Part shown: positions 1 to 15,774 of the stretch, in pieces
Position numbering within the stretch: the stretch's first letter is position 1
Layout of the letters: each line of letters opens with the position of its first letter
DNA from: Candidatus Hydrogenedentes bacterium CG07_land_8_20_14_0_80_42_17
GTDB taxonomy: Bacteria > UBA8481
Assembly: GCA_002780065.1 (NCBI GenBank)
Contig: PEWQ01000056.1
Location: 1 to 21,503 of the forward strand
Reading direction: 5' to 3'
DNA: 21,503 nucleotides
Position numbers and translations under genes: made by a program
Notes under the pieces: generated by a model
The model's database searches: none
The model's input: only the letters and a program-made list of their open reading frames with translations
What the model was told of the DNA's origin: nothing

Positions 1-557
1 ATGAAACCAAAAATAATAAATGAAATAAAAGTTACTGCAGAATTTTTGAGAGGAGATTCCTCTTCGCTTACAATAGATAATTCCTCAACCATCATAATGT
101 CGACCCAAGCAGACGGATATTTCGAAATCGTATCTACAATTTTATTTGCATCTTCCAAATCGATACCTTTCTCTCGGTATATCTCGATCAATTCCTGTTT
201 TTCTCCTGCCGGATGGTTCTCGACCTCCCATGATTCACGATCTCTTTCCGAACGATTGTACTCATTCTGAGCTTTAGTGCTTAGAAAGTCTCCCACAGCC
301 ATTGAGAGCCCGTCTGCAATTAAGTTAGCAAAACCTAAAATAAGAACGACACATGGAGAAAGAGAAGCCCCTGAAACTCCAGCAACAACTGCAAACGTCG
401 TGACTGTGCCATCAAGCCCGCCATAAATTAAACTTTATAAATATTCGCCGTGAGAGATGTGAGTTTCAACTGCAGGTTTATCGTGAGCACTCTTCGACAA
501 TTCAAAATCGCCACTCTTCCATGCTTCTCTAGCATTATTTAAATTTCTTGTTAGCAT
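1..557 (-). pseudogene. VIT1/CCC1-family iron/manganese transporter, 5' part, interrupted by TAA
   Basis: The minus strand encodes the N-terminal part of a VIT1/CCC1-type vacuolar-iron-transporter-like membrane protein. Members move Fe2+ or Mn2+ out of the cytosol. Reading starts at ATG 557-555 (MLTRNLNNAREAW...) and passes through family hallmarks: THISHGEYL, then [14 protein letters not shown] leading into helix 1, [20 protein letters not shown] in helix 2, and the acidic cytosolic stretch with [15 protein letters not shown]. The frame is open to base 1, so the C-terminal helices lie outside the window. A single in-frame TAA sits at 437-435, between HGEYL and SLIYGG, where relatives usually have Lys; AAA or AAG to TAA is one substitution. 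The first 40 codons would give only a cytosolic peptide. It may be a pseudogene, a base error, or a protein restarted downstream. The gene is divergent from the cytochrome operon. Confidence 0.75.
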
Positions 558-873
558 AAAAAATACATTACCGGATTTATAAAAAAAGTTAAAGTTTTTT
601 CTTTAATTCCATCACTTCCGCCACACCTAAATAAGTAATTTAAATATTGTGAAATTCCATGCAAATTCATTTGTAATACAAAAAAAAAATTATAATTACT
701 AAATTTATACCAAATTAGTGCTATTTATATTTGGATATATATCTGTAATATAAAGAGTTACAAGCGCTGTGGATAACTTTAAAAAAATAATATTTTAATA
801 AAAAAACATTTGACATTTTTGGGGCAAATTGCTACAAAGTCATTATAAAGATATTTATCTTTGGAGGTATCGT
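558..873. other. AT-rich divergent intergenic region
   Basis: This 316-base gap separates the VIT-type gene from the first cytochrome. It is very AT-rich, with A and T runs near 576-602, 679-688 and 781-806. It contains the perfect 10-base palindrome GATATATATC at 734-743 and the promoter described at 810-838. I see no coding frame, tRNA or riboswitch-like structure in it. Confidence 0.6.
810..838 (+). promoter_or_regulatory. sigma70-type promoter for the porin-cytochrome genes
   Basis: A consensus -35 box TTGACA (810-815) is followed by a 17-base spacer and a -10 box TACAAA (833-838, 4 of 6 matches to TATAAT). Transcription would start near 845, about 30 bases before the first ATG at 874, leaving room for the GGAGG ribosome site at 863-867. 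The position and spacing fit a housekeeping promoter for the cytochrome cluster. No operator is recognisable. Confidence 0.6.
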
Positions 874-1362
874 ATGAAAAAATATGATCTAATAATGATG
901 GCAGTTTCGACTGTGCTCGTTGGCACAGTAATAATGATGGGATCATTTAATACTCCTTCTATTGCCGATGAAACTTCAAACAGTAATTCTAAACTCAAAT
1001 ATGTTGGCGCTGAGAAATGCAAGATGTGTCATATTAAACAATATAAATCATTGGCAGAAACCGGAATGAGTAAAACATGGGATCGAATCAAGGATGCAGA
1101 AGGCAAAGATAAATGTTACGCGTGCCACACAACAGGGTTCGGCCAGCCCGGTGGTTTTACATCATTCGAAGCAACGCCGAATCTTGTCGGAGTTCAATGC
1201 GAAGCATGCCACGGTGCAGGGTCGGCTCACTTAGCAGTTCCGATGTCTGGCAAGGAAGCAGGGCGCGCTACAATTCAGCGCAAAGTAACATCCTGCGTGA
1301 ATTGCCATAATCCTCATGTGCCGGACAAAGCGGCGGCAGTAAGAAATGAAGAGGCTAAGTAA
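874..1362 (+). CDS. tetrahaem periplasmic cytochrome c, c554-like
   Basis: A 162-residue exported tetrahaem cytochrome c. The start is ATG 874, because GGAGG (863-867) lies seven bases upstream and the protein then begins MKKYDLIMM with a clear signal peptide (hydrophobic residues about 6-23, likely cleavage after SIA near 31). Earlier in-frame TTG codons have no such support. Four CXXCH haem sites follow: CKMCH (49), CYACH (81), CEACH (109) and CVNCH (141). The opening YVGAEKCKMCHIKQY and the CEACHGAGSAH segment resemble the cytochrome c554/c-prime family. In the family such proteins are small periplasmic electron carriers. It is the first gene behind the promoter at 810, and its TAA (1360-1362) overlaps the presumed start of the porin gene, which suggests coupled translation. 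A shuttle to the outer-membrane conduit is inferred. Confidence 0.85.
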   Translation: MKKYDLIMMAVSTVLVGTVIMMGSFNTPSIADETSNSNSKLKYVGAEKCKMCHIKQYKSLAETGMSKTWDRIKDAEGKDKCYACHTTGFGQPGGFTSFEATPNLVGVQCEACHGAGSAHLAVPMSGKEAGRATIQRKVTSCVNCHNPHVPDKAAAVRNEEAK

Positions 1363-2746
1363 TAAAATTAGCTTTAGATAGTTCTCGTAAAAGAACTAGT
1401 AGCAAAAAAATATGGAAAGCGTATTTGCCAATTTTAATTCTTCTTACATCAGTCACGTTTGCGCGTGCTGACGAATCTTTAAAAATTCACGGTTCAATGG
1501 ATCTTCGAGTTGACGGCCGTTGGGGGCAAAACTCTTCCGACGTTCGGCAAGATTGGGATGCGTATGGTTATCTCGACCTCTATTCAACTCAACCGAAACC
1601 AAAAATGGTTTCTCATTTGCACTCAGCGGCAGAGTAAGCGGAGATTTAGACGGCAGGCGGCCTGGCCTTAAGCCTGGCATCTACAACGGCATTTACGAAA
1701 CATTCGATCATTCGGTTCAGCCTTGGCTCTACAGAGCAACTATCACTAAGAATTTTGAGGCAGACGGAAGCGGTTTGAAATCTGTGAGAATCGGAAGGCA
1801 GTATCACACCGGTGGAGATTTTCTCTGGTTTGACGGACTTGAAGTTCATTCACTCATCCCGATCGAAAACAATAGTTTAGACATAGCCATATTTGGCGGA
1901 GTGCCGGTTCGATTATATGAAAGCTCATCAAACGACTGGCTGGCCGGCGGCGGCGCAAGTTTAAGATTAGACAAGGTTTACATGGCATTGGAAGGTTATC
2001 ATATTGAAGAGGATGCCAGATTCGGCTGGGTAAGAAAGAACACTGTCGGCAGGTTTGCTCTTGATGCAAATCTCAACGAAAAAATTAATTTCAACGGAGT
2101 AGTAAGAGCGGTTGATGACGAAGAGATTGACGGTAGAACCCGTTTGACAATGAATCTCCCTCGCAATGCAATTGCCAGACTCGATTACCAATTTCAATCA
2201 GATGACAAGAGTTCACACTCTACAGAACTCGATGCGTATTCAATCATCTTAGGGCGCTCGATTGGAGCATCTCGACGCGGATTCAGCGACTTCGGCGGAG
2301 ACATCATGGTTCCGCTTAGCGATCATTTGAGTTTTGATATCGGAGCATCAGCGCGTGACTTTAAAGACTCAGAAGACAGAAACAATCACGATTTCGACAG
2401 GTTCTTCGCGACTTTAATGCTTTCAGATATGAAAATAATAAACCGTTCTACAGACATATCGATAACCGGTGAAGCCTACGAAACTCTGACCGATTACACA
2501 AGAGCAATATCCGGCGATGTCTCAATGAAATACTCTAAGACAGTGACTTTATCGGCAGGCACAAGTTACGCAATTTATTCCTATGACTATGCTACCGACC
2601 AAGTAAAAGACGATGTCAGATTAGGAACTGCAAAGATTACTTGGGAACCAAAATCCAATCTGCGTTTCAATCTAAGATATGACATTGAAGATGACGATTA
2701 CAGGCTTCATCATTTTATAAGTGCGGGGTGCAGATATGCGTTCTAA
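1362..2746 (+). pseudogene. outer-membrane beta-barrel (porin-like), frameshifted
   Basis: This is a beta-barrel outer-membrane protein of about 450 residues split over two frames. The first frame gives a Lys/Arg-rich n-region (KKIWKAYLP), a hydrophobic core (ILILLTSVTFARA) and the mature start DESLKIHGSMDLR. The second frame resumes at NGFSFALSGR and runs to the end with alternating aromatic/polar strands, terminating in CRYAF; a C-terminal Phe is the usual barrel-assembly signal. The shift lies between 1584 and 1605. Removing one copy of the tandem TCAAC at 1584-1593, or adding an A to the run at 1601-1605, restores a single frame. No ATG is available: the best-placed start is ATA 1362, overlapping the previous stop as TAATA, with GAAGAGG (1348-1354) seven bases upstream. 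TTG 1425 would lose the charged n-region. By context it is the barrel of a porin-cytochrome complex, although sequence similarity to MtrB was not seen. Confidence 0.7.
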
Positions 2747-3689
2747 TTCGAAATTGCTCCGAAGTTTCATTTACATCAGCGCAATAGTATTCGCCGTTGC
2801 CGCGCTTTCATGCGATACCGGTATAAAGAACGGGCTTACTTTCAAACATGAGGTTCATGTTTCTTCGGGGCTCAAATGCAACGAGTGCCATTCTGCAGGC
2901 GGAGTTTTACCAACTATTGAAGTTTGCAAAACTTGTCATTCAGAAGCAATCGGCAATATTACTCCTGAAAAAATAGAATCGCTCATGAAATCGGTTTCAA
3001 ATAGAAAAGGAGCATTCGGCCTTACTTTCGAGCATCCGCGTCATTCCACTCTAGAATGTTCAGAGTGCCACAAAGTTGCCGGCAATACGGTTCTCATACC
3101 GAAGATGAATTTCTGTTTAGAGATGTGTCACAGCGAAGCGCAGGCTTTACCTCTGACATGCAATAAATGTCATTCGGAATTGAGCTCAACCGGCAAACCT
3201 AACAATCATCGTGTTGGGTGGGAAGTTAAACACGGCTCTTACGCTTACGCAAATTCAACAGAATGCAAAGTATGCCATCAAGAGAACAAATGTTTTGAAT
3301 GTCATAGAATAAACAAGCCTACGAATCACAATCAGTCATGGAGACTGCGAGGGCACGGCGTAGTTGCTCAGGCAGACCGCGAACGCTGTCAGTCATGTCA
3401 CACTCAGGATTTCTGCACACGTTGTCATCTTGAAACCAAACCGATCAATCACACTCCGTCATGGAACAACTCAGCTTACCAACATTGCAGGCAGTGCCAT
3501 ATACCGGTATCAAATTCAAATTGCGCCGTATGCCATGTTCAAGGAGCTTCACACAGTTCAGCTCCTGCGTGGCCAACTAACATTACTCATGTGACCGGAG
3601 CAAGCTGCAGGACATGTCACATCGGTCCAGGACAAAAGTTAGAGCATCCGGACAATGGAGATAATTGCGAGGTATGTCATGCAAAGTAA
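2736..3689 (+). CDS. 13-haem cytochrome c, probable lipoprotein of the porin-cytochrome conduit
   Basis: A 317-residue multihaem cytochrome starting at ATG 2736, eleven bases inside the end of the barrel gene. An in-frame GTG at 2721 is less likely because it adds MRGAD before the signal peptide. Residues 1-27 form an export signal ending in AALSC, a loose lipobox that suggests lipidation at Cys28. The rest is packed with haem sites from about residue 48 to 311: twelve CX2CH motifs and one CX3CH (CLEMCH, about 129). The HEVHVSSGLKCNECH and HPRHSTLECSECH segments have the F/H..H...C..CH pattern of cytochrome c7-type repeats. Thirteen haems in about 265 residues would make an extended electron wire. 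Next to a barrel and before a larger surface cytochrome, it most resembles the periplasmic or barrel-inserted partner (MtrA/OmaB-like role) of an extracellular electron transfer complex. The role is inferred from context. Confidence 0.85.
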   Translation: MRSNSKLLRSFIYISAIVFAVAALSCDTGIKNGLTFKHEVHVSSGLKCNECHSAGGVLPTIEVCKTCHSEAIGNITPEKIESLMKSVSNRKGAFGLTFEHPRHSTLECSECHKVAGNTVLIPKMNFCLEMCHSEAQALPLTCNKCHSELSSTGKPNNHRVGWEVKHGSYAYANSTECKVCHQENKCFECHRINKPTNHNQSWRLRGHGVVAQADRERCQSCHTQDFCTRCHLETKPINHTPSWNNSAYQHCRQCHIPVSNSNCAVCHVQGASHSSAPAWPTNITHVTGASCRTCHIGPGQKLEHPDNGDNCEVCHAK

Positions 3690-3717
3690 AAAATTAATCA
3701 TCATCAAAGGAAATAAT

Positions 3718-3771
3718 ATGGTTATGAGTTCGAGGTATCATTGTAATAATCCGGAAAGACCGGGGAGGTGA
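3718..3771 (+). CDS. possible 17-residue leader peptide
   Basis: A short frame, MVMSSRYHCNNPERPGR, starts at ATG 3718 with AAAGGAAA (3706-3713) at ribosome-site distance. It ends in a TGA that overlaps the GGAGGTGAGGAG ribosome-site region of the next gene. The hairpin CCGG-AAAGA-CCGG (3751-3763) lies inside its end. It could couple or gate translation of the giant cytochrome. It is very short and its coding status is not shown by anything beyond position and ribosome site. Confidence 0.25.
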   Translation: MVMSSRYHCNNPERPGR

Positions 3772-3776
3772 GGAGT

Positions 3777-6700
3777 ATGAAGCGATTGGTGTTATTTGGT
3801 AAGTCAGTAAAAATCGAAAATGATCTTTTGCGATTGGGAATCATTCTTGGTGTCTTCGCGATCGCAAGCCTTGCCTGCGTATCATCTGGAGACGTTGCTC
3901 CCACAAGCACGAGCTTCGGTGAAACGAATGCAACGATTTCTGGAACCGTTTATGTTGGAGGCAGTGTAGCCTCAGGAGCGCGAATAGCTACCGATAGAGG
4001 TGAATACTCCACCACCACCGGTTCAGACGGTAAATATACTCTGAATGTCGCAGGCGATAAGACCTACAATGTATTTGCTACGTATAACGGATACAAGACC
4101 GTTGTAGCAAAACAAAATAGAATTGTATCCGGAGACGCAAAGACTGTGAATCTAACTTTCACCACTCCCCTAGCCTCCGGTGAAAAAACATATATGGGTT
4201 CATCTCAGTGCAAACTCTGCCATGCAACTCAATACAATCGTTGGTCAAATGCTCCTCACAGATACGGAATTTCAGCTCCAGGCGACAGCCCTGGAATTCT
4301 TTCTACTCCAAAAACTGAATTTGAAGCAGGATATGCTCTCTCTGCAACTTCTGCCTTTTCTGCTTACGGTTCCAATGCTCCAGTTCTAACAAAGAGCGGC
4401 GATACTTATTATATTTCGATAGGGACATGCAGTTATCCTGTGACATACGCGATGGGATGCCAATGGAAACAGAGATACATAACCACAATCGGAGAAGCTC
4501 ATTATATTTTACCTATTCAATACAATGTAGCTACCAGTGAATGGGTGACATACAATGCAAGCGATTGGTATAGCGGAGTAACTCCGAAATATTCTACAAG
4601 TACATCTTTAGAAACCGACATATACAAGAAAAACTCATGGGAACGAAAATGTATCGGATGCCACTCGGTCACAGGAATTCTTTCGCTTGAATATTCAGCA
4701 AGTTCTGCAAGCGGAATTTCACAACACAAATCGGATTGGCTTGAAAAAGGAGTCGGTTGCGAAGCCTGCCACGGTCCAGCTTCTGCTCATGTTTGGGCAA
4801 ATGGATCTACAGGTCCGTCATCCGATCCATACATTGTTAATCCAGCAAAGCTTTCGCGCGACAGACAGCTCGATGTGTGCGGGCAATGCCACTCAAGAGG
4901 TGTTTCCGTAGGAACACTAGGCAGTCAGACAGGCGACACATATACTCTGGAATATTGGTATAACGGCACCAGAACATTCCATCCAGGCGATACGCTAGTC
5001 GCGTATTACACTGACGGCGGCAGTTACTATGCCGACTCATCGGAAGTCAAGACTTCTAAAGGACATCATCAGCAGTGGAATGATCTATGGCAGTCAGCTC
5101 ATCTTGCTTCGAATGCCGCGATCACTACAATCAATTGCGGTTCATGCCACGATAATCACGGACCAGTCGGATACGAGCGGCAATTAAAGCTCGACAATGA
5201 CGACAATTCACTATGTCTTTCCTGCCACGGAGCAGATGGAGCTGCAGAGCAGAAATTTGCAACTGATTCAGCAGTGCTAGACCATACGGGTTCCGGGCAC
5301 ATCACTTACAATCCGCAATCAGGGCCAGGCAGATGTTCACGTTGCCACATGCCGACCACAGCAAAGTCTGCAATCAAACAGGACATTCATTCGCATACGT
5401 TCAGAGTTGTCACTCCTCGTGCGGCATGGAGATTTGCGATGTATTCACCGTCAGATACAATACCAAGCTCGTGCAATCAGAAATGCCACAATCCAAATTC
5501 TTCAAAAGGAACGAGTTGGGGCGATCCGAACACAGCGGCGGCAATGTATCTTGGAGCTCAGTGGTGGGATTCCACCGTCGAGCAACCTGGCGAAGTCATG
5601 CCTGATTCCGGATATGCTCTGATAAAAGGCAAAGTAAGTCTTAGTGCCACAACAGACAAATCGGATACTTTAGGCATTTGGGTCACAGTTCTGAATACGA
5701 ATTATGGAACGGTTACAAATCGTGACGGAACGTATGGGCTATGTGTCAGCGTTCCCGGAACATATACGGTGCAAGCATCGAAATACAATTATGAGACTGC
5801 AAGCTTGACGATATACGTCTCAACAAATCATGAAGTAAAGTCCAATCAAAATCTCACTCTAACTGCAGGCGCCGCATTATTCTCAAAGAGACCGTTGCGT
5901 TGCGGAGCATGCCACGGAGGAATCTGGGGAGCACAATGGAGGAGAAGCGGATTTGAAGGAGTTCAGCAATCCGAGGCAGAAGGCGTTACAGATCTTGCGG
6001 CGGGACACAGTTTAATAGCAAAGCATGCGGCCGGTAACACATCTTGTATAAAATGTCATGAAGGAAGCGCGGCTATCAGCTACCTAATTTCAGCGGATAC
6101 TGATGCAACATATCTCAAGAACGATCCCGCGGCTCGGCGCGGTCAAACATGCGAAGTGTGCCATATGCCGCATCCAAATGCCGGAGATGGAACATACGGA
6201 GAAGAGAATCTCAGGCAGGTTCAGAACTCAACAGGATTCGATACAGGATACTTCTATGTAAAGAATACGTATGGTGGAACCGACAGTTCGATGAATTTCC
6301 CACCTGCATACAGATCAGCGGCATGCATTATGTGCCACAATCAGAGAACTGCTCCAACGGACAGTGGAACAGGAGTAAAAGTATCAGGTGGAAACTATGT
6401 GCCGGTTTCAACTCCACACGTAGGAAACAATTCGGAAGGATTCTTTGGAATACGAAGCGGGCTATCCGGAGCATCACTTAATTTTGACAGTGCGCCAGGA
6501 TTTGTACCAGCCAATTCTTCTCACTCCGACACATTATGGGGAGGAGCCTACAAGTATCAGGCGTATGTCTATGTAAACGGCGCTCCGAAACTTGTTTCTC
6601 AAGACGGAGCTCCCATAACAAGAAGCACAAAGTTCCAATGTATATCTTGCCACATGTTTAGGCAAAATAGCGGCACGTATGGCTCAGGTTCAAATGCCGC

Positions 6701-7400
6701 TCAAGATGCAGGGCATTCGTGGAAGCCTGACATTCGCGCATGCGGAGTATGTCATGACCCCTCTTATATTTTAATCAATCCTTACTCAGCGACCTACACA
6801 TCGATGTGGGCAAAAAGCGGAGCAGGTGACGTTGGATACTGGGGCACGGACTCTTGGGGCGTTTCAGCCTCGGGTTCAGAGCTAGGATTTGACAGGCCCG
6901 TGACAGCACTGCCTCATCAGAAAGACAATGGCGATAGCATGGCTGGAACCACTGCACGACCGGCAGCGGTAGACGGAGTTTCTAATGACTATGACGGAAA
7001 TGGAAGAGCGGAAGGAGCTCACACTGAAGCAAACAAACTTTTCGAGCGTGTAATGGCGGCATTCGAGCAAGGAACGTATGGAACCGAAACATCAGGAATA
7101 CTCGTGTTAGGTTCATCGGTCGGGCTTGGAGATACGTTTACCGGTTCGTATCCATACTTCAAATTCAATGCAACACGGGCGGCAACAGGAGTTACAAACT
7201 TAGCTGATTATCCTCTAACCAAACTGACTCAAGATGAAATGCGAATTGCATGGAATCTTGTTTTCTTAGAGCACGACGAAACAAATCTAGGAGTTCACAA
7301 CTTGAGATTTGCAGTCGAGACACTCAGAAAGATGTGGCAGATTATGGGACAGCTTATAACAAACGATCCAAACTGGAGTCCTCCAGGAGACGATTACTGA
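3777..7400 (+). CDS. 14-haem giant cytochrome c with two carboxypeptidase-regulatory-like domains
   Basis: A 1,207-residue exported multihaem cytochrome. ATG 3777 is the chosen start, since GGAGG (3764-3768) is correctly spaced; GTG 3768 lies inside that site. Residues 15-33 are a hydrophobic export signal ending in SLAC, a weak lipobox. Residues about 45-125 form a beta-sandwich like the carboxypeptidase regulatory (CarboxypepD_reg) fold: ISGTVYVGG, SDGKYTLNV, YNVFATYNGY. Eight haem sites follow at about 145, 292, 328, 368, 454, 481, 521 and 566, the eighth being CX3CH (CNQKCH). A second beta-sandwich (about 610-690: IKGKVSLSA, NRDGTYGLCV, YTVQASKYNY) precedes six more at about 709, 757, 792, 851, 955 and 989. 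The last 200 residues have no haem. The size, beta domains and neighbours suggest an outer-surface terminal cytochrome analogous in role to OmcB/MtrC, though not clearly homologous. TGA ends it just before a terminator. Confidence 0.85.
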   Translation: MKRLVLFGKSVKIENDLLRLGIILGVFAIASLACVSSGDVAPTSTSFGETNATISGTVYVGGSVASGARIATDRGEYSTTTGSDGKYTLNVAGDKTYNVFATYNGYKTVVAKQNRIVSGDAKTVNLTFTTPLASGEKTYMGSSQCKLCHATQYNRWSNAPHRYGISAPGDSPGILSTPKTEFEAGYALSATSAFSAYGSNAPVLTKSGDTYYISIGTCSYPVTYAMGCQWKQRYITTIGEAHYILPIQYNVATSEWVTYNASDWYSGVTPKYSTSTSLETDIYKKNSWERKCIGCHSVTGILSLEYSASSASGISQHKSDWLEKGVGCEACHGPASAHVWANGSTGPSSDPYIVNPAKLSRDRQLDVCGQCHSRGVSVGTLGSQTGDTYTLEYWYNGTRTFHPGDTLVAYYTDGGSYYADSSEVKTSKGHHQQWNDLWQSAHLASNAAITTINCGSCHDNHGPVGYERQLKLDNDDNSLCLSCHGADGAAEQKFATDSAVLDHTGSGHITYNPQSGPGRCSRCHMPTTAKSAIKQDIHSHTFRVVTPRAAWRFAMYSPSDTIPSSCNQKCHNPNSSKGTSWGDPNTAAAMYLGAQWWDSTVEQPGEVMPDSGYALIKGKVSLSATTDKSDTLGIWVTVLNTNYGTVTNRDGTYGLCVSVPGTYTVQASKYNYETASLTIYVSTNHEVKSNQNLTLTAGAALFSKRPLRCGACHGGIWGAQWRRSGFEGVQQSEAEGVTDLAAGHSLIAKHAAGNTSCIKCHEGSAAISYLISADTDATYLKNDPAARRGQTCEVCHMPHPNAGDGTYGEENLRQVQNSTGFDTGYFYVKNTYGGTDSSMNFPPAYRSAACIMCHNQRTAPTDSGTGVKVSGGNYVPVSTPHVGNNSEGFFGIRSGLSGASLNFDSAPGFVPANSSHSDTLWGGAYKYQAYVYVNGAPKLVSQDGAPITRSTKFQCISCHMFRQNSGTYGSGSNAAQDAGHSWKPDIRACGVCHDPSYILINPYSATYTSMWAKSGAGDVGYWGTDSWGVSASGSELGFDRPVTALPHQKDNGDSMAGTTARPAAVDGVSNDYDGNGRAEGAHTEANKLFERVMAAFEQGTYGTETSGILVLGSSVGLGDTFTGSYPYFKFNATRAATGVTNLADYPLTKLTQDEMRIAWNLVFLEHDETNLGVHNLRFAVETLRKMWQIMGQLITNDPNWSPPGDDY

Positions 7401-7411
7401 TCGTTATTTTC

Positions 7412-7445
7412 AGGCCCGGGGATAAAACTCCGGGCCTATTTTTAT
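7412..7445 (+). terminator. Rho-independent terminator after the 14-haem gene
   Basis: A GC-rich hairpin pairs AGGCCCGGGG (7412-7421) with CTCCGGGCCT (7428-7437) around an ATAAAA loop, including one G-T pair, and is followed by TATTTTTAT. It lies 11 bases after the TGA at 7398-7400. It closes the porin-cytochrome transcription unit and shows that UGA is a genuine stop here. Confidence 0.9.
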
Positions 7446-7504: not shown

Positions 7505-9718
7505 ATGCTAAAAGAAATAATTAATCTGCAAAAGCATATTTTTAAATTGATTCTAACAAAACTTTTATCACTATCAAAAGTATCCATTCCAACTGATCGG
7601 CGAGGCTGGATAAAAGCTATTGTCATTGTTTTTGCTATATGCTTTTTTATTGCCGGCGTATGTTTTGCCGTCATCGTCGAGATAACCCAGCAACCTAGAT
7701 TTTGCAAGTCGTGCCACAACATGGAGCCTTACTATCAAAGTTGAAAAAGTTCCGGACATAAAAATGTTAATTGCATTACGTGCCATTATGAACCTGGATT
7801 GCGATCAATGTGGCGCGGAAAAATTCAGGGACTTGTTCAGGTAGTAAAATATTTTACTGCAACTGCCGGCACAAGGCCGTGGGCTGAAGTTGAAGACGCT
7901 TCATGCATGAGGCAGGGTTGTCACCAGACAAGACTTCTTGAAGGAAGAGTAACATTCCATCACAAAAACATCCATTTCGATCATAAGCCGCATCTTTTAG
8001 AGATGAAGCGTGGAAAGAAACTGCGATGCACTTCCTGTCATTCTCAAATGGTGATGGGCTCACACATTTCAGTCACGACATCTACATGCATTCTGTGCCA
8101 TTTCAAAGATCGGCCGCCTGGCAAACCAATCGCGGGCTGTCGAGGATGCCATCAAGTTCCGCAAGATACGATTACACTTCCCAGCGGATTAGAATACAAG
8201 CACTCAAAATATGTCGACAGCGGAGTAGAATGCATATCGTGTCATTATTCTCTGACAACAGGAGACGGTTTTGTTTCAAAGAACAGATGTTTTTCTTGCC
8301 ACAACTTTGATATAAGCAAATATCTCGATAAGCCTGAATTTCTGCATCAAAAGCATGTGACGGAGCACAAAGTCGAGTGCATGGATTGCCACGAAGAGAT
8401 CACTCATGGATACGAATCCGAGCGGCGAGTTGCAAGGCTCGATTGCAATCAGTGTCATTCCAACGCGCATTCAACCGTAAAGATACTGACTGAAGGAAAC
8501 ATTGCGGAGCTTATAGGCGATTCGCGTCCTCACGTAGGGCCGATGTTGTCTGCCAGGGTCGAGTGCATTGCCTGTCACATAAAAGAGATCGGAACCGATA
8601 CGCCTCACAGAGGTTCAAAACTTATCGGTTCAAGTGAGGCATGCGTCAAATGTCATGGAACAAGAGGTTCAGAAATACTAATAAAATGGAGGGATTATTT
8701 TGAAAATAGGATTCATGAAGTAGAGCGTGCGATTAAAAATTCCAGAGTAGATAGAAACAAATTAAACAGAGCGAAAGAATTTCTTGCTGTAGTGAAGACA
8801 GGAAATCCTGACCACAATCCGAGTTTAGCGAGAGAGCTTTTAGAAGCCGCTGAAAATATAGCGAACGGCAAAGAATTTTCGGTGAGGCGTCCAATCGGCG
8901 ATCGAGCGACAGCAGGGCTTGATTGCAGATATTGTCATCTTGATGCTCCTCAAAGTCCTGTAAAGTTCCAGGGGATTTCATTTCCTCACCGACCTCACGT
9001 TAGAGACGCCGGACTATCCTGCGAAAAATGTCATGAGAATGCTCCGACTTCTTTTCCTACAGGCAGACACGGAAGAATAAAACTTACTGTAAATGACTGT
9101 CAGAATTGTCATCACTGGCAGAGAGGTAATTGCAAAGGCTGTCACGGTAGCGGGCCTGAAAATGCTATTTCATGGAATAGAATTTCATTCAAACACAAAG
9201 TTCATATTGAAAAAGGAATCGATTGTTTGAAGTGTCACAGACGGGCTGGAGAGGGCAACAGAATGGGCGTTTCCGTTTCATTGTCGAATTGTATTTCATG
9301 TCATCACACTGTAGGCAACACGAAAGTTTGCTCAAAGTGTCATATCGGTTCCAGATTGCCTGTCACAGTTAATTTCCGTCAGGTGAAAGTTCCTCATTCG
9401 ATGCACGTGAATGATCTTGGGCTCGAGTGCGGTGATTGTCATGCAAGCAGTAAGCAGGGAGTAAAACTTAAACCTAAATGTGGAGATTGTCATCATGAAT
9501 CAGAGATGAAACCTAATTGTCGAGCATGCCACGGTAGAGGGCCTAGTAATTCTATAAGATTCAAAAATGTTAATTTTCCACATTCAACTCATCTCGAATT
9601 AGGATTAGAATGTTCAGATTGTCATGCAAATGGAAAGAGTAGAATTGGTGAGGCGTGCATGACATGTCATGAAGAAGATTTTTTTAAGTCAGATAATTCG
9701 GCAGATTCAGTTAAATGA
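7505..9718 (+). CDS. NapC/NirT-type quinol dehydrogenase fused to a 24-haem cytochrome array; in-frame TGA at codon 80
   Basis: A 737-residue protein if the TGA at 7742-7744 is read through. Residues 1-60 hold a basic cytosolic tail and one membrane helix (AIVIVFAICFFIAGVCFAVI). The NapC/NirT signature follows: CKSCHNMEPYYQS, TGA, then KSSGHKNVNCITCH. Relatives have Trp exactly there (W..S.H...C..CH), so TGG to TGA is the simplest explanation. Downstream are 22 more haem sites, including CX4CH (CMRQGCH, from 7904), for 24 in total. A haem-free helical segment lies at about residues 395-455, and a C-terminal array of c7-like F-x-H-x-x-H repeats follows. The family oxidises menaquinol at the outer face of the inner membrane. 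If translation stopped at TGA the remaining 639-codon frame would have no signal peptide, so its haems could not be attached. Its own TGA overlaps the next ATG (ATGA). The unusual size and the interruption are both real in this sequence. Confidence 0.8.
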
Positions 9719-10275
9719 ATAATTATTTTAAATCGTCATTTGTAATTTTGTCAGCATTAATATTTTTTAGTTGCTCAAAAAGCGGAAAAAGTGAAGAAAC
9801 AATAAAGACGAATTATGAATCTAATAAAGATTCGAATTTGATTGCCGTTGCTTCACCTCCATTTTCAGAATTTATTTTTCCATGTTCCAGATGCCATAAA
9901 AATATCGAGCCGAACCACAAGCGAAGAGAGTTGGTATGGGCGCATGACAATATCAAGCTGGAGCATGATGAAAAGAACAGATGGTGTCTTGACTGTCACG
10001 ATGCAAATAACAGAGACAAACTGCATTTAGCAGACGGACGTCTTTTAGATTTTACCGAGTCATACAAATTGTGCGGGCAGTGTCACGGCCCCACTCTTAG
10101 AAATTGGCTTGCAGGAGAGCACGGAAAGAGAACGGGATCATGGAAAGGGCAAAAGCAATATCTGCTTTGTGTAAACTGCCATAATCCGCATTCTCCGAGA
10201 TTCAAGCCTCTCGAGCCATTGCCAAGACCGATGAAGCCGAGCGAATTGCGCGACACAAATGGAATTAGATTATGA
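9715..10275 (+). CDS. tetrahaem cytochrome c lipoprotein of an Fe-S/NrfD quinol complex (CbcS-like)
   Basis: A 186-residue lipoprotein. The signal is MNNYFKSSFVILSALIFFSC, with Cys20 the likely lipidated residue (a relaxed lipobox), followed by a Ser/Lys/Glu-rich linker. Four CXXCH sites follow: CSRCH (about 59), CLDCH (about 86), CGQCH (about 121) and CVNCH (about 153). It overlaps the upstream TGA by ATGA and its own TGA overlaps the next ATG, so it should be made in step with the Fe-S and NrfD subunits. The trio of cytochrome c, four-cluster ferredoxin and NrfD-type membrane protein has the same composition as the Geobacter Cbc4 (CbcSTU) menaquinol oxidoreductase and resembles NrfB/C/D and alternative complex III parts. 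It probably takes electrons from the Fe-S subunit and passes them to periplasmic cytochromes. Homology to CbcS itself was judged by layout only. Confidence 0.8.
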   Translation: MNNYFKSSFVILSALIFFSCSKSGKSEETIKTNYESNKDSNLIAVASPPFSEFIFPCSRCHKNIEPNHKRRELVWAHDNIKLEHDEKNRWCLDCHDANNRDKLHLADGRLLDFTESYKLCGQCHGPTLRNWLAGEHGKRTGSWKGQKQYLLCVNCHNPHSPRFKPLEPLPRPMKPSELRDTNGIRL

Positions 10276-11177
10276 AAAAAAATACAGATTTAACTCGCAG
10301 AGAATTTATTAAAGGCGCCGCCGGCATTGCCGGTGCTACAGTACTTGCAAGCTGCGGTTTGTCAGGAGATGCTCTGGAAGCCTTTCTACAAAAGCATTTC
10401 AAAGAGTTGTCTAACGATGAAAAGGCAGAAATACTGAAGAGAATCGAAGACGAATGCAAAGCTAAATATGGAAAGGAAGTAGCAGTTGTGGGCACTCCGG
10501 CAGAAGAAGGAGTTCTTTTCGCATATGCGCTCGACATTTCAAGATGTATTGGATGCAGACGTTGTGTTTACGGCTGTTGCGAAGAGAACAACCAATCGAG
10601 GGATCCTCAAATACACTGGATAACAGTTTTAGAAATGGATAAGTCGGAAGGAGTCAATCTCGAAAAAGCAAATTCCTATTATGAAGTCGATAAGGTTCCT
10701 CAGCCGGACAAATTCTATTTTCCTGTTGCCTGCCAGCAATGCGAAAATCCTCCGTGCGTAAAAGTCTGCCCGGTAAAAGCGACATGGAAAGAACCAGACG
10801 GAATAGTTGTAGTTGATTACAACTGGTGTATTGGATGTCGGTGTTGCATAACCGCATGCCCGTACGGAGCGAGGCATTTCAACTGGGCTGAACCGAAAAT
10901 TCCGACTGATGAACTAAATCCAAGCATGCATTATCTTGGAAATCGTCCGCGAATGAAAGGCTGTGTTGAGAAATGCACTTTCTGCATTCAGAGAACCAGA
11001 GGAGAAGAGAAAAAATATCCGAAATGTGTGGAGGTATGCCCGGTGGGAGCAAGGAAATTCGGCAATCTGCTCGATCCTTCAAGCGAGATCAGATACATAT
11101 TGGCAAACAAAAGAGTATTCATCTTCAAAGAAGAACTGAATACTCGTCCTAAATTTTTCTACTACTACGGCCTATGA
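10272..11177 (+). CDS. Tat-exported 4x[4Fe-4S] ferredoxin subunit (NrfC/DmsB/CbcT-like)
   Basis: A 301-residue iron-sulfur electron-transfer subunit. The N-terminus has a twin-arginine signal, TRREFIKG, and a hydrophobic stretch ending in LASC (Cys28), so it may be a Tat-dependent lipoprotein. After a helical linker come four cysteine groups typical of the DmsB/NrfC/PsrB family: CIGCRRCVYGC (about 92), CQQCENPPCVKVCP (about 155), CIGCRCCITACPYG (about 187) and CTFCIQR with a later CVEVCP (about 236 and 255). Together these can hold four [4Fe-4S] clusters. The protein would sit on the periplasmic side of the NrfD subunit encoded next (ATGA overlap) and link it to the tetrahaem lipoprotein encoded just before. 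The need for Tat export fits the tatABC genes a few kilobases downstream. Confidence 0.9.
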   Translation: MKKNTDLTRREFIKGAAGIAGATVLASCGLSGDALEAFLQKHFKELSNDEKAEILKRIEDECKAKYGKEVAVVGTPAEEGVLFAYALDISRCIGCRRCVYGCCEENNQSRDPQIHWITVLEMDKSEGVNLEKANSYYEVDKVPQPDKFYFPVACQQCENPPCVKVCPVKATWKEPDGIVVVDYNWCIGCRCCITACPYGARHFNWAEPKIPTDELNPSMHYLGNRPRMKGCVEKCTFCIQRTRGEEKKYPKCVEVCPVGARKFGNLLDPSSEIRYILANKRVFIFKEELNTRPKFFYYYGL

Positions 11178-12415
11178 TTAAATTTATACGTAATTTTATT
11201 AATTTCATTATTGCAAGTATGCGAATGATAGCAAAAGGCAATATTGCATATTACTGCTGGCTCATATTATTGCTTATCTTAATTTTGCAAGGAGGATTTG
11301 CATATCTTCACCAATTTGAAAAAGGATTGATAGTAACGAACATGCGGGACCAAGTCTCGTGGGCATTTTACATCGGTAATTTCACGTTTCTCGTCGGAGT
11401 TGCTGCGGCCGCAGTAATGCTCGTAATTCCGGCGTACGTCTACAACTGGGGTCCGATAAAAGAGATTGTAGTTTACGGAGAGCTTCTCGCAGTCGCGGCA
11501 ATCTCGATGTGCCTCGGTTTTGTTCTTGTCGATATGGGAAGGCCTGACAGGTTCTGGCATCTCACACCAATTATAGGGATCATGAATTTTCCATCATCGC
11601 TTCTTGCATGGGATGCGATCGTCCTGAACATTTATCTTCTCGTGAACTTGACAGTTGTCACCAACATTCTTTATTCGCTTTTTATGAAGAAGCATTACAA
11701 TCATAAAATAGTTTTGCCGCTCGTTATATTCTCCATCCCGATGGCCGTCAGTATTCACACGGTCACTGCATTTCTGTATAACGGTATGGCGGCTAGGCCT
11801 TACTGGAACTCCGCAATTCTCGCTCCGCGTTTCCTCGCATCGGCATTCTGCTCAGGACCTGCGATACTTCTCATTCTTTTTCAAGTGCTACGCAAAACCA
11901 CATCGTTCCGAATCAAAGATGAAGCAATCCATAAAGTAGCTGAATTGATGGCTTATGCAATGTTCATTAATCTTTTTCTTTTCTTTGCCGAAGTCTTTAA
12001 AGAATACTATTCAAATACTCAGCACATAGTCTACATGAACTATCTATTTTTCGGATTGAACGGCAAGATGAGTCCAATAGCAATCTGGGGCTGGCTATCC
12101 GTATTGTTCGGTGTAATAGCTTTTCTCATCTTTCTGTTTCCAAAAACCAGAAAAAATTTTGTTGCGATGAATATCGGTTGCGTAATGATATACACCTCAG
12201 TTTATATTGAAAAAGGTATTGCTCTAATTATTCCTGGATATACTCCGACAGTACTCGGAGAAATTTACGAATACTTTCCAAGCATTCACGAATTGAGAAT
12301 TTCAGCCGCAATTTTTGGAGTTGGATTCTTACTCTTTACTTTAATGATTAAAGTTTCCAATTCGCTTCTGTTTGAAGAGTTATCAATTGAGACAATAAAA
12401 AATCGTGAGCAGTAA
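11174..12415 (+). CDS. NrfD/PsrC-family membrane quinol oxidoreductase subunit (CbcU-like)
   Basis: A 413-residue integral membrane protein with about ten hydrophobic helices (roughly residues 26-48, 60-91, 96-120, 138-168, 178-204, 219-239, 255-280, 298-320, 326-352 and 370-392). The family (NrfD, PsrC, ActC, CbcU) carries no haem and exchanges electrons between menaquinone and a partner Fe-S protein. Recognisable features are LVDMGRPDRFWHL after helix 3, typical of the NrfD family, and SIHTVTAFLYNG at the fifth helix. Start ATG 11174 overlaps the Fe-S gene stop as ATGA. The reading frame is intact. Since the Fe-S partner is periplasmic and the final carriers are cytochromes, quinol oxidation is the more likely direction, but the sequence does not prove it. 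Confidence 0.88.
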   Translation: MIKFIRNFINFIIASMRMIAKGNIAYYCWLILLLILILQGGFAYLHQFEKGLIVTNMRDQVSWAFYIGNFTFLVGVAAAAVMLVIPAYVYNWGPIKEIVVYGELLAVAAISMCLGFVLVDMGRPDRFWHLTPIIGIMNFPSSLLAWDAIVLNIYLLVNLTVVTNILYSLFMKKHYNHKIVLPLVIFSIPMAVSIHTVTAFLYNGMAARPYWNSAILAPRFLASAFCSGPAILLILFQVLRKTTSFRIKDEAIHKVAELMAYAMFINLFLFFAEVFKEYYSNTQHIVYMNYLFFGLNGKMSPIAIWGWLSVLFGVIAFLIFLFPKTRKNFVAMNIGCVMIYTSVYIEKGIALIIPGYTPTVLGEIYEYFPSIHELRISAAIFGVGFLLFTLMIKVSNSLLFEELSIETIKNREQ

Positions 12416-12446
12416 TAATTCAAAATCCTTATCAGAGTTTTTTTGC

Positions 12447-14585
12447 ATGAGCATTAAGAAAACGCTCATCTTTCTTCTCCCCTTTTTTATTTTTGTTGCC
12501 CCCAACACTGCGGAGAACAATACAAGCAACAGAAGCTGTCTGTCCTGCCACGGACTGACAACCTTCGAATCAAACTCAAATCAGACCATATTTGTCGATA
12601 AATTCATATTTGAGAGGTCAATGCACGGCCGCTTATTATGTACAAGCTGTCATAAAGATATTAAAGAGTATCCGCACGGCGTGGTAAAAAAAATCGATTG
12701 CAAAATATGTCATGATTCCAAACGAAGATATGATGGAAGGTTTCATGCTTCAAGTTTTGTCAATTCTATTTTATTGAGAACTAACGATGGATTTTTTGTG
12801 ACAGCCAGGCCGAGCAGAATAACTTCTCTTTTGAAAGACAATGTTTGTTTAAGCTGTCACTCGGACAGTAGCGTAAACAAATCGATTCACGGTGAAAAGA
12901 GATGCGTCGAATGTCACGCTGATGCAACTGCAAATCACAGTAAACTGAAAAAGGTCGATTGTGGAATTTGCCATATTGATGAAAAAGGAAAATATGCTCT
13001 AACTATTCATGGCAGGCAAAATGCCGGTTGAGATGTAAGAGCTCCTATATGCTCATCATGCCATGGAACTCACGATATACTTTCAGTAGCTGATCCGTTG
13101 TCGAGTGTTTATCCGTCAAAAGTTTCCGAAACTTGTATTGGATGTCACGGCAATAGTAAATTTCAAGGAATTAGTGGAAGCGGAGTCATACTAAATCCGA
13201 AACTGTATCGCTCAAGCGTTCACGGCAGGCCTTCTACATCCAGAAATCTTTCCATCTCTGCGACCTGTGTAGATTGTCATGGAGCCCACTCAATTCTCTC
13301 GAGAAGCGATCCTCTCTCATCAGTCTCTTACACAAATCAAGCGGCAACGTGTAAAAGATGCCATGAGAAGGAAGCCGGAGAGTATGCAAAATCGGCACAT
13401 GGTCAAGCAGTTGCAAAAGGCGCGCATGAGGCTCCGACATGTTCTGACTGTCATGGAGAACACGGAATACTCTCTCACACAAATCCTCTCTCACCAACAT
13501 ATCGACTGGCAATCGCTCAAAATCTCTGCATCGGTTGTCATGACAGACCTGCTCTTCAGCAAAAATTCGGACTCGCCGCGAATCGAAGCTCTACATACGC
13601 AAAATCGTATCACGGGCTTGCGGTAAGAGGAAAAAGCGCAATAGCGGCAGTATGCACGGATTGTCATGAAACGCACAGAATACTTGGAGAGAATGATCCT
13701 GCTTCAAGCATCCATCCGTCCAACAGAGCAAAAACATGTCAGAGATGTCACACAGATGCGGCGTCACGTTTTACATCAGCTGAAAAAATTCATTCCAGTT
13801 ATGAGGATCATTGGTTAACAAATATGGTAAAGATATCTTATCGGTTGATAATAAGCGGAACACTTGGTGGAATGCTTGTATGGGTTGCGATTATCATGCT
13901 ACCAGAATTTAAGAAGAAAGTAACTCGATCACTTTCGAATTCCAGACGAAGATTCTCAGTTTCTGAAACCGTACAGCATATTTTACTATTAACGTCATTC
14001 ATCACTCTAGCAATAACCGGATTTGCATTGGCATTTCCAGATGCTTTTTTGGTGAAAAAACTTTTAGAATTTGGAATATTTGATGAGCGTTCACGAAGTT
14101 TGATTCACAGAATCGCCGGCTTGACACTTTTGGCAGTTGGAGTCTGGCATATCATTTACCTCGCCATAACACGCAGGGGCAGATGGTTTGTCCTGCAGTT
14201 GATTCCGAAGATTGCTGATATCAAAAGTGCAATACAACATCTGCTATATTCTATAGGAATCAAAAAGGAGCATCCTCATTTCAAACATTTTTCATATTTT
14301 GAAAAGGCTGAATATTGGGCATTGGTATGGGGAACGATAGTTATGGCGGCAACTGGAATCATTCTGTGGTTCCCTGAAAAAATGCCGCGACTACTCGTTT
14401 TCGTATGCGAAGCGATTCATTTATACGAGGCAATACTTGCAGTCGGAGCAATAATCATCTGGCATTTCTTCTTTGTTTTCATCGAGCCGAGCGAATTTCC
14501 TTTCAACCCATCGATCTTTACCGGAAGAGCTCCAAAGGATTCCGAACTTGACGAAAGAACGGAAGAGCCGCCAAAAGAAAATTAG
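12447..14585 (+). CDS. CbcL-like fusion: 14-haem cytochrome c plus cytochrome b561-type membrane domain; in-frame TGA at codon 195
   Basis: A 712-residue protein if TGA 13029-13031 is read through. ATG 12447 gives a clean signal peptide (MSIKKTLIFLLPFFIFVAP); GTG 12405, inside the NrfD gene end, is an alternative. Six CXXCH sites precede the TGA and eight follow. The interruption falls in HGRQNAG-TGA-DVRAPICSSCHG. The internal repeat HGQAVAKGAHEAPTCSDCHG aligns without gaps and has Gly at that place, so GGA to TGA is likely. From about residue 460 there are five hydrophobic helices like the cytochrome b of hydrogenase/formate dehydrogenase (HydC/FdnI), with His in VQHILLL, RSLIHRIAG...VWHIIYL and IHLYEA...IIWHFFF as b-haem ligand candidates. 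The same fusion occurs in Geobacter CbcL, an inner-membrane quinol oxidase for metal reduction. Without readthrough the second half has haem motifs but no signal peptide. Confidence 0.8.
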
Positions 14586-14649: not shown

Positions 14650-14835
14650 ATGTTTTCAGGATTGCACGGTACAGAATGGATTATTATTTTATTTGTAGTG
14701 TTGCTGATTTTCGGCCCGACTCAACTTCCAAAACTTATGAAAACCATAGGTGAAGGCATCAAAGCATTAAAAAAAGCCAGCAGTGATTCTGACTCTTCTG
14801 AAACTTCTGCTGATTCAAAAGAGAAGAAACAATAA
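14650..14835 (+). CDS. tatA: Sec-independent translocase subunit TatA
   Basis: A 61-residue TatA/E-family protein. The N-terminal helix (WIIILFVVLLIF) is followed by the hallmark FGPTQLPKL hinge, then an amphipathic helix (MKTIGEGIKALKKA) and an acidic/Ser-rich tail. TatA oligomers form the size-variable passage for folded proteins with twin-arginine signals across the inner membrane. The length is short but normal for the family. It starts the tatA-tatB-tatC set and is followed five bases later by tatB. A clear client in the window is the Fe-S protein at 10272. Confidence 0.93.
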   Translation: MFSGLHGTEWIIILFVVLLIFGPTQLPKLMKTIGEGIKALKKASSDSDSSETSADSKEKKQ

Positions 14836-14840
14836 GGTAA

Positions 14841-15080
14841 ATGTTTGATGTTGGTTGGCAGGAAGGTCTTGTAATAGTAATTGCGGCATTAGTTCTAGTG
14901 GGGCCGGAAAAGCTTCCTGAAACATTAAGATGGTTCGCTTCAATTTTAAGAAAAGCAAACCTAAGTTACACTGAAGTAATGCGCGAGATAATGTCAATCG
15001 ATCTTCCTGATAATGGCAATACAATTGCAAGCTCTCCGAAAGCTCCGAATAAGTCTATAGCCACAGAAGAAAAAAAATAA
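14841..15080 (+). CDS. tatB: Sec-independent translocase subunit TatB
   Basis: A 79-residue protein starting MFDVGWQEGLVIVIAALVLVG and continuing PEKLPETLR. The MFD-G-Q-E start and the VGPEKLP hinge are typical of TatB rather than TatA, though the two families overlap and the tail is shorter than in E. coli TatB. TatB joins TatC in the receptor that binds the twin-arginine signal. The start is ATG 14841, with AAGGTAA upstream spanning the end of tatA (14834-14840). TatC follows after four bases. Confidence 0.88.
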   Translation: MFDVGWQEGLVIVIAALVLVGPEKLPETLRWFASILRKANLSYTEVMREIMSIDLPDNGNTIASSPKAPNKSIATEEKK

Positions 15081-15084
15081 TTCA

Positions 15085-15774
15085 ATGAGCATTTTGGTTC
15101 ATCTAATAGAATTGAGAAACAGAATAATAAAAAGTTTAATCGCACTTGGAATCGGTATGGCAATTTCATTCTTCTGGCTCGAGCCAATAGTATTTCGCGC
15201 CGCATTGCTTCCACTAGGAAAAAGAGAATTGCTCTATCTAGGGCTTGGCGAGGCTTTTTCCGTTCATTTGACATTTGCGTTCTATCTCGGAATCGTAATA
15301 GCAGTGCCGATCATTGCCTATCAGGTTTGGGCATTCGTAGCGCCTGGACTTTATCCTAAAGAAAAAAGTTTTGCTTTTAAAGCCTCTTTTCTTTCTGTTA
15401 TCCTCTTTGCCACAGGAGCCGCATTCGGTTACTTTTTTTTACTGCCAACTGTTGTTAAATTTTTTCTTTCTTTCGAGGCAGACGGTTTACGGTATGGCGG
15501 TGCGCTCGAGCCATACCTCAGCCTTGTATCAGGAATTGTATTAGGAGCCGGAATTGCGTTCCAACTCCCTCTTCTGCTTCTTGGCCTCATGAAAGCCGGA
15601 ATAGTTTCAAGAGAAGCCATTGCCAGCCGGCGCAGATACTGGATGTTTGTAATAATCATTGCAGGAGCGATATTGACTCCGACAGGCGATGCAGCAACGC
15701 TTGCAGTCTTTTGTCTGCCTTTATGGTTGCTCTTCGAAATCACTCTTTTCATAGCAAAGCTCGGGCGATACTAA
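15085..15774 (+). CDS. tatC: Sec-independent translocase subunit TatC
   Basis: A 229-residue polytopic membrane protein with the TatC pattern: HLIELRNRI near the N-terminus, GLGEAFSVHL (the conserved Glu after helix 1), YQVWAFVAPGLYPKEK in the second cytosolic region, FGYFFLLP, and later helices ending at about residue 225. TatC recognises the twin-arginine signal and nucleates the translocase. The length is near the family norm of about 240. It lies four bases after tatB and its TAA is followed at once by the ATG of the short DUF2085 gene, so the genes form one unit. Confidence 0.95.
   Translation: MSILVHLIELRNRIIKSLIALGIGMAISFFWLEPIVFRAALLPLGKRELLYLGLGEAFSVHLTFAFYLGIVIAVPIIAYQVWAFVAPGLYPKEKSFAFKASFLSVILFATGAAFGYFFLLPTVVKFFLSFEADGLRYGGALEPYLSLVSGIVLGAGIAFQLPLLLLGLMKAGIVSREAIASRRRYWMFVIIIAGAILTPTGDAATLAVFCLPLWLLFEITLFIAKLGRY

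Follow-up and report, generated by a model that had tools for sequence, protein, structure and literature searches.

The unit at positions 874–7400 of the analysed DNA very probably encodes, or recently encoded, a porin-cytochrome conduit of the Pcc class, a reading that is given a probability of about 0.82. The window, which is the whole stretch of 21,503 nucleotides, covers almost an entire contig of a draft bin of 207 contigs (87% complete), and the host phylum is represented by two genomes in the search set. Four genes lie in the unit on the forward strand, as do the promoter, the terminator, and the second unit described below: a 4-haem c554-like exported cytochrome (874–1362, 162 aa), a broken outer-membrane beta-barrel of about 460 codons (~1362–2746, open part 1514–2743), a 13-haem lipoprotein (2736–3689, 317 aa), and a giant 14-haem exported cytochrome (3777–7400, 1207 aa). 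The initial annotation had reported these genes with 4, 13, and 14 haems, and both the genes and the counts are confirmed, since shuffled proteins of the same composition contain a mean of 0.01–0.17 CxxCH motifs and never more than two, which places the window proteins far above chance. Its description of a promoter-to-terminator unit is well founded at the 3' end, where a strong intrinsic terminator is present (7412–7437, 10 pairs, −20.7 kcal/mol, z −3.7). At the 5' end, a possible sigma-70-like promoter (TTGACA-17-TACAAA, 810–838) is plausible by eye, but the promoter scan did not list this site and found promoter-like sites no commoner than in shuffles. A search of Rfam gave no matches.

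The c554-like protein, whose gene starts at 874 (a small correction to the initial annotation), carries four CxxCH motifs, matches Pfam Cytochrome_C554 (1e-15), and is a probable periplasmic shuttle. In one of the compared loci (L049), a homologue of it immediately precedes the barrel. The 13-haem protein packs one haem per 24.4 residues, and MtrA one per 25.1 residues (PMC7399161). Here the initial annotation needs another small correction, as one of the 13 motifs is atypical: 12 are CxxCH, and that at residue 127 is CxxxCH (CLEMCH), where aligned relatives carry CxxCH. Of 41 sequences, at least 90% retain the lipobox cysteine, Cys26, and the protein is therefore considered a lipoprotein. It is proposed to be the wire that would insert into the barrel. 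The structure predicted for the protein is of low confidence (pLDDT 61.8) and was left out of the argument. In the family tree, the window sequence forms a long, divergent branch outside the anammox clade, without a well-supported neighbour.

The barrel is homologous to more than 40 other barrels and ends in CRYAF, in agreement with the terminal phenylalanine noted initially. It is broken, as the initial mention of a repaired barrel had implied. The reading frame breaks near 1600, with the N-terminal part in one frame and the remainder in another, and the two frames are collinear on a single barrel profile (positions 55–81, then 92–464). No standard start codon is present; ATA stands where the spacing from a GAGG Shine-Dalgarno sequence would put the start. 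The fold was predicted for a full-length homologue (L070), giving 22–23 strands at a pLDDT of 86.5. Over its whole span (46–472), this homologue aligns best to 22-strand TonB-dependent transporters such as PirA, Cir, and BtuB (Z 17–20, up to 19.9), and it also aligns with pilus ushers; it is as wide as the TonB-transporter barrels and has no plug domain. Simple geometry gives a backbone radius of ~20 Å for a barrel of this type vs ~24 Å for 26 strands. A pore of the width predicted for ~22 strands could therefore hold a folded wire domain, and the pore too small for a conduit, which had been named as grounds for rejecting the idea, is not borne out in the homologue. MtrB is absent among the structural matches listed for the L070 barrel, which proves nothing.

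Evidence for the conduit also comes from the linkage of the two core genes. When 290 genomes were searched for the 13-haem protein, 26 proved to have it, the window's own included, and a search of named genomes yielded 46 loci distributed over Planctomycetota, Myxococcota/Deltaproteobacteria, Methylomirabilota, SAR324, Omnitrophota, Spirochaetota, Marinimicrobia, and others. In 44 of these 46 loci, the gene immediately upstream of the 11–15-haem protein encodes a homologous barrel; of the two misses, one is due to a contig beginning within the gene and the other is a distant relative. In the reverse direction, the barrel profile matched in 34 of 386 genomes, and a multihaem neighbour was present at 14 of 15 strong barrel loci outside the window, the exception lying at a contig end. 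Intact homologues occur in other genomes. The genes do co-occur, contrary to the second ground that had been named for rejecting the idea. A closed 3.0-Mb genome (G376 contig 1) holds four copies of the barrel family. It might be argued that the barrel merely takes up nutrients or exports a substrate and stands next to cytochrome genes by chance, as Foldseek ranks substrate channels such as OpdK and AlgE at the top. However, the best full-length structural matches are the wider 22-strand barrels, and the near-invariant pairing with a dense cytochrome across phyla refutes this explanation as the data stand, and it is considered highly improbable.

The third component, the giant cytochrome, contains 13 CxxCH motifs and one CxxxCH motif, two CarboxypepD_reg domains, and a stretch (residues 284–442) that matches OcwA (6i5b, E 2e-8). 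It is proposed to be a surface reductase, although its lipobox is weak and its location at the surface is presumed. Clear homologues were detected in only three of the loci compared (L089, L094, and L078), with weaker partial matches in L047, L050, and L051, and when genomes were scanned with this protein as the sole query, no relatives turned up. Among the papers searched, none described a multihaem cytochrome with carboxypeptidase-regulatory domains in electron transfer.

A second unit follows the terminator and may supply the conduit with electrons from quinol. It comprises a NapC/NrfH-like anchored multihaem cytochrome with 23 CxxCH motifs (7508–9718), a 4-haem lipoprotein (9715–10275) whose homologue adjoins the DsrO-like gene in L078, a TAT-exported, DsrO-like 4Fe-4S protein (10272–11177), an NrfD-type integral membrane protein of the DsrP family (11174–12415), and a 14-haem cytochrome fused to a b561-type membrane domain (12405–14585). 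The DsrP-like protein scores above the cut-off of its NCBIfam model (NF045798, 401.7 vs 350 bits) and the DsrO-like protein below (NF045797, 172 vs 200 bits). DsrO- and DsrP-like genes also lie beside the conduit in L089 (Planctomycetota) and L078 (Deltaproteobacteria), and three other genomes have all or part of the combination of giant cytochrome and DsrO/DsrP-like module. This partner set is uncommon but recurrent; the initial annotation had called the partner set of the conduit unfamiliar. Directly after the cytochrome island, which encodes a TAT-signal iron-sulfur protein, come tatA-, tatB-, and tatC-like genes (14650–15774). All Cytochrome_C7 matches of the host genome (G000) are on the window contig. 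The haem-ligation genes ResB and CcsA are present in the host genome on another contig (C207).

Based on these components, the DsrO/DsrP-like, NapC-like, and b561-fused cytochrome modules would oxidise quinol at the inner membrane and hand the electrons to periplasmic tetrahaem shuttles, the c554-like protein among them. For comparable quinone modules, a role in feeding periplasmic cytochromes has been proposed (PMC9386147). The 13-haem lipoprotein would then sit in the 22-strand barrel and carry the electrons across the outer membrane; the homology, the near-invariable linkage, and the width of the pore are observed, and the insertion is presumed. At the surface, the giant 14-haem protein may take them up and reduce an extracellular acceptor; its resemblance to an OcwA domain is observed, and its function is deduced. 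The direction of flow is not readable from sequence, and the same chain could in principle work inward, taking up electrons from Fe(II), a mineral, or a partner cell, as MtoAB and PioAB, which have the same architecture without an outer cytochrome, serve Fe(II) oxidation (PMC4245776). However, the giant cytochrome resembles the terminal reductase OcwA, and electron uptake is regarded as unlikely.

The conduit is probably damaged in this assembly. In addition to the broken barrel, an in-frame TGA interrupts the NapC/NrfH-like gene at 7742–7744, where its three closest homologues have Trp, and another lies at 13029–13031 in the 14-haem/b561 fusion gene, with the frame and the homology continuing on either side. 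With interruptions in the barrel and in two inner-membrane cytochromes, the chain may be non-functional here. At the contig edge, a VIT-like transporter fragment (1–470, minus strand) has an in-frame stop near its conserved N-terminus. Genome-wide reading of TGA as Trp was considered and rejected, as TGG is used throughout, 33 ABC-transporter domain matches (PF00005) elsewhere in the genome have no internal stops, and only the site at 7742 falls on a conserved Trp.

This copy of the conduit may be either decaying or misassembled. We see an even chance that the lesions arose as assembly or consensus errors and that the living organism carries an intact conduit, an explanation consistent with the draft state of the bin and with the conserved long reading frames that flank each break. 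It is weakened by the stop-free PF00005 matches and by a crude interrupted-frame scan of 270 kb of the same bin, which turned up mostly ordinary gene junctions. A dead or dying relic, i.e., an acquired island that is now decaying and not used by the organism, is a serious possibility that falls somewhat short of even odds. Five apparent lesions lie within 14.6 kb (the barrel start, the barrel frame, the two TGA codons, and the VIT-like stop), while the tat and glycolysis genes of the window are intact, as are the ABC-transporter domains. The composition of region 1–7400 is also atypical of the bin: its tetranucleotide correlation is 0.77, whereas other contigs reach 0.90–0.98 and the right-hand part of the window 0.92. 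However, the reading frames of the giant gene (3.6 kb), the 13-haem gene, and the DsrOP-like genes are open throughout, a draft metagenome bin could look alike through base errors or mixed strains, and haem-rich coding sequence itself shifts the tetranucleotide content.

Region 1–7400 may have been horizontally acquired, as suggested by its atypical composition, which is to be read with the unusual composition of haem-rich genes in mind, together with a genome of the same order in which neither the barrel and wire nor the giant protein was detected at the thresholds used. The PGK of the host is about equally close to the same-order genome and to others, which neither proves nor excludes correct binning. 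It is tentatively speculated, with more doubt than confidence, that a mobile extracellular-respiration island is involved, in which the Kuenenia-type barrel with its 13-haem wire, the giant CarboxypepD_reg/OcwA-like cytochrome, and the DsrOP-like module travel together between phyla; it would be a three-part variant of a conduit that has been reported from anammox bacteria only in a two-gene form. The anammox-type conduit occurs across many phyla and can be accompanied by a surface cytochrome and a dedicated quinone module. No solved structure was found that covers a ~22-strand barrel with a 13–14-haem wire, and the homologues, including those of cultured or enriched anammox lineages, provide a panel for how such a barrel holds its wire.

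Compared with known systems, the core pair is, as judged from its sequence, a divergent member of the Pcc class, including its two-gene anammox form (Shi 2014, PMC4245776), and is not new. Pcc clusters combine a barrel of 18–22 strands with a 5–14-haem cytochrome in the periplasm and, in most cases, an outer cytochrome, and the two-gene form in Kuenenia and Anaeromyxobacter has a cytochrome of 12–14 haems and 338–344 residues (PMC4245776). As this class already spans such strand and haem numbers as well as the Kuenenia form, the new type of complex suggested by the initial annotation is not supported. In the window, as in 44 of its 46 relatives, the barrel gene is tied to a periplasmic multihaem gene. 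The window cytochrome has 13 haems, within the range of the class; the homologue L070 has 22–23 strands, and the exported 14-haem protein with its weak lipobox follows as a candidate outer-membrane cytochrome. The loci of Kuenenia, Brocadia, and Jettenia are direct homologues of the window pair. The Kuenenia hertensis (L074) cytochrome, with 14 haems in 338 aa, is homologous to the 13-haem protein (E 1e-40), and its barrel shares an identity of 26% over 350 residues with the window barrel (E 6e-17). Extracellular electron transfer has been demonstrated in anammox bacteria, and a porin-cytochrome complex was proposed in the pathway (PMC7188810). In their loci (L074, L077, L080, and L083), a homologous barrel lies immediately upstream of a homologous 13–14-haem lipoprotein of ~338 aa. 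The published Kuenenia cluster, however, is without an outer-membrane cytochrome (PMC4245776), while the window unit adds the giant 14-haem protein.

By description, OmbB-OmaB-OmcB of Geobacter shares the three-part layout of an 18–22-strand barrel, a periplasmic multihaem cytochrome, and an outer cytochrome, but OmaB and OmcB have 8 and 12 haems (PMC4245776), in contrast to 13 and 14 in the window. MtrCAB, MtoAB, and PioAB follow the same working principle with a barrel of 26–28 strands and the 10-haem MtrA, in contrast to ~22 strands (in the homologue) and 13 haems here. Membership of the Mtr family was rejected: the barrel has no match in Pfam or NCBIfam, MtrB/PioB models included; the 13-haem protein does not match TIGR03508 (decahaem MtrA/DmsE), and the giant protein reaches 20 bits against the OmcA/MtrC model TIGR03507, far below its cut-off of 209. 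The initial view that neither cytochrome is a close homologue of MtrA or MtrC is therefore upheld. The similarity of the giant protein to OcwA of Thermincola (6I5B) is confined to the one matching stretch, and the host of OcwA is Gram-positive and has no barrel. The CISM modules of MBNT15 and Melioribacter combine, like the second unit, a 4Fe-4S protein, an NrfD-type protein, and a multihaem cytochrome, and were likewise proposed to feed periplasmic cytochromes (PMC9386147), whereas the window pair scores as DsrO/DsrP-like and adjoins the conduit.
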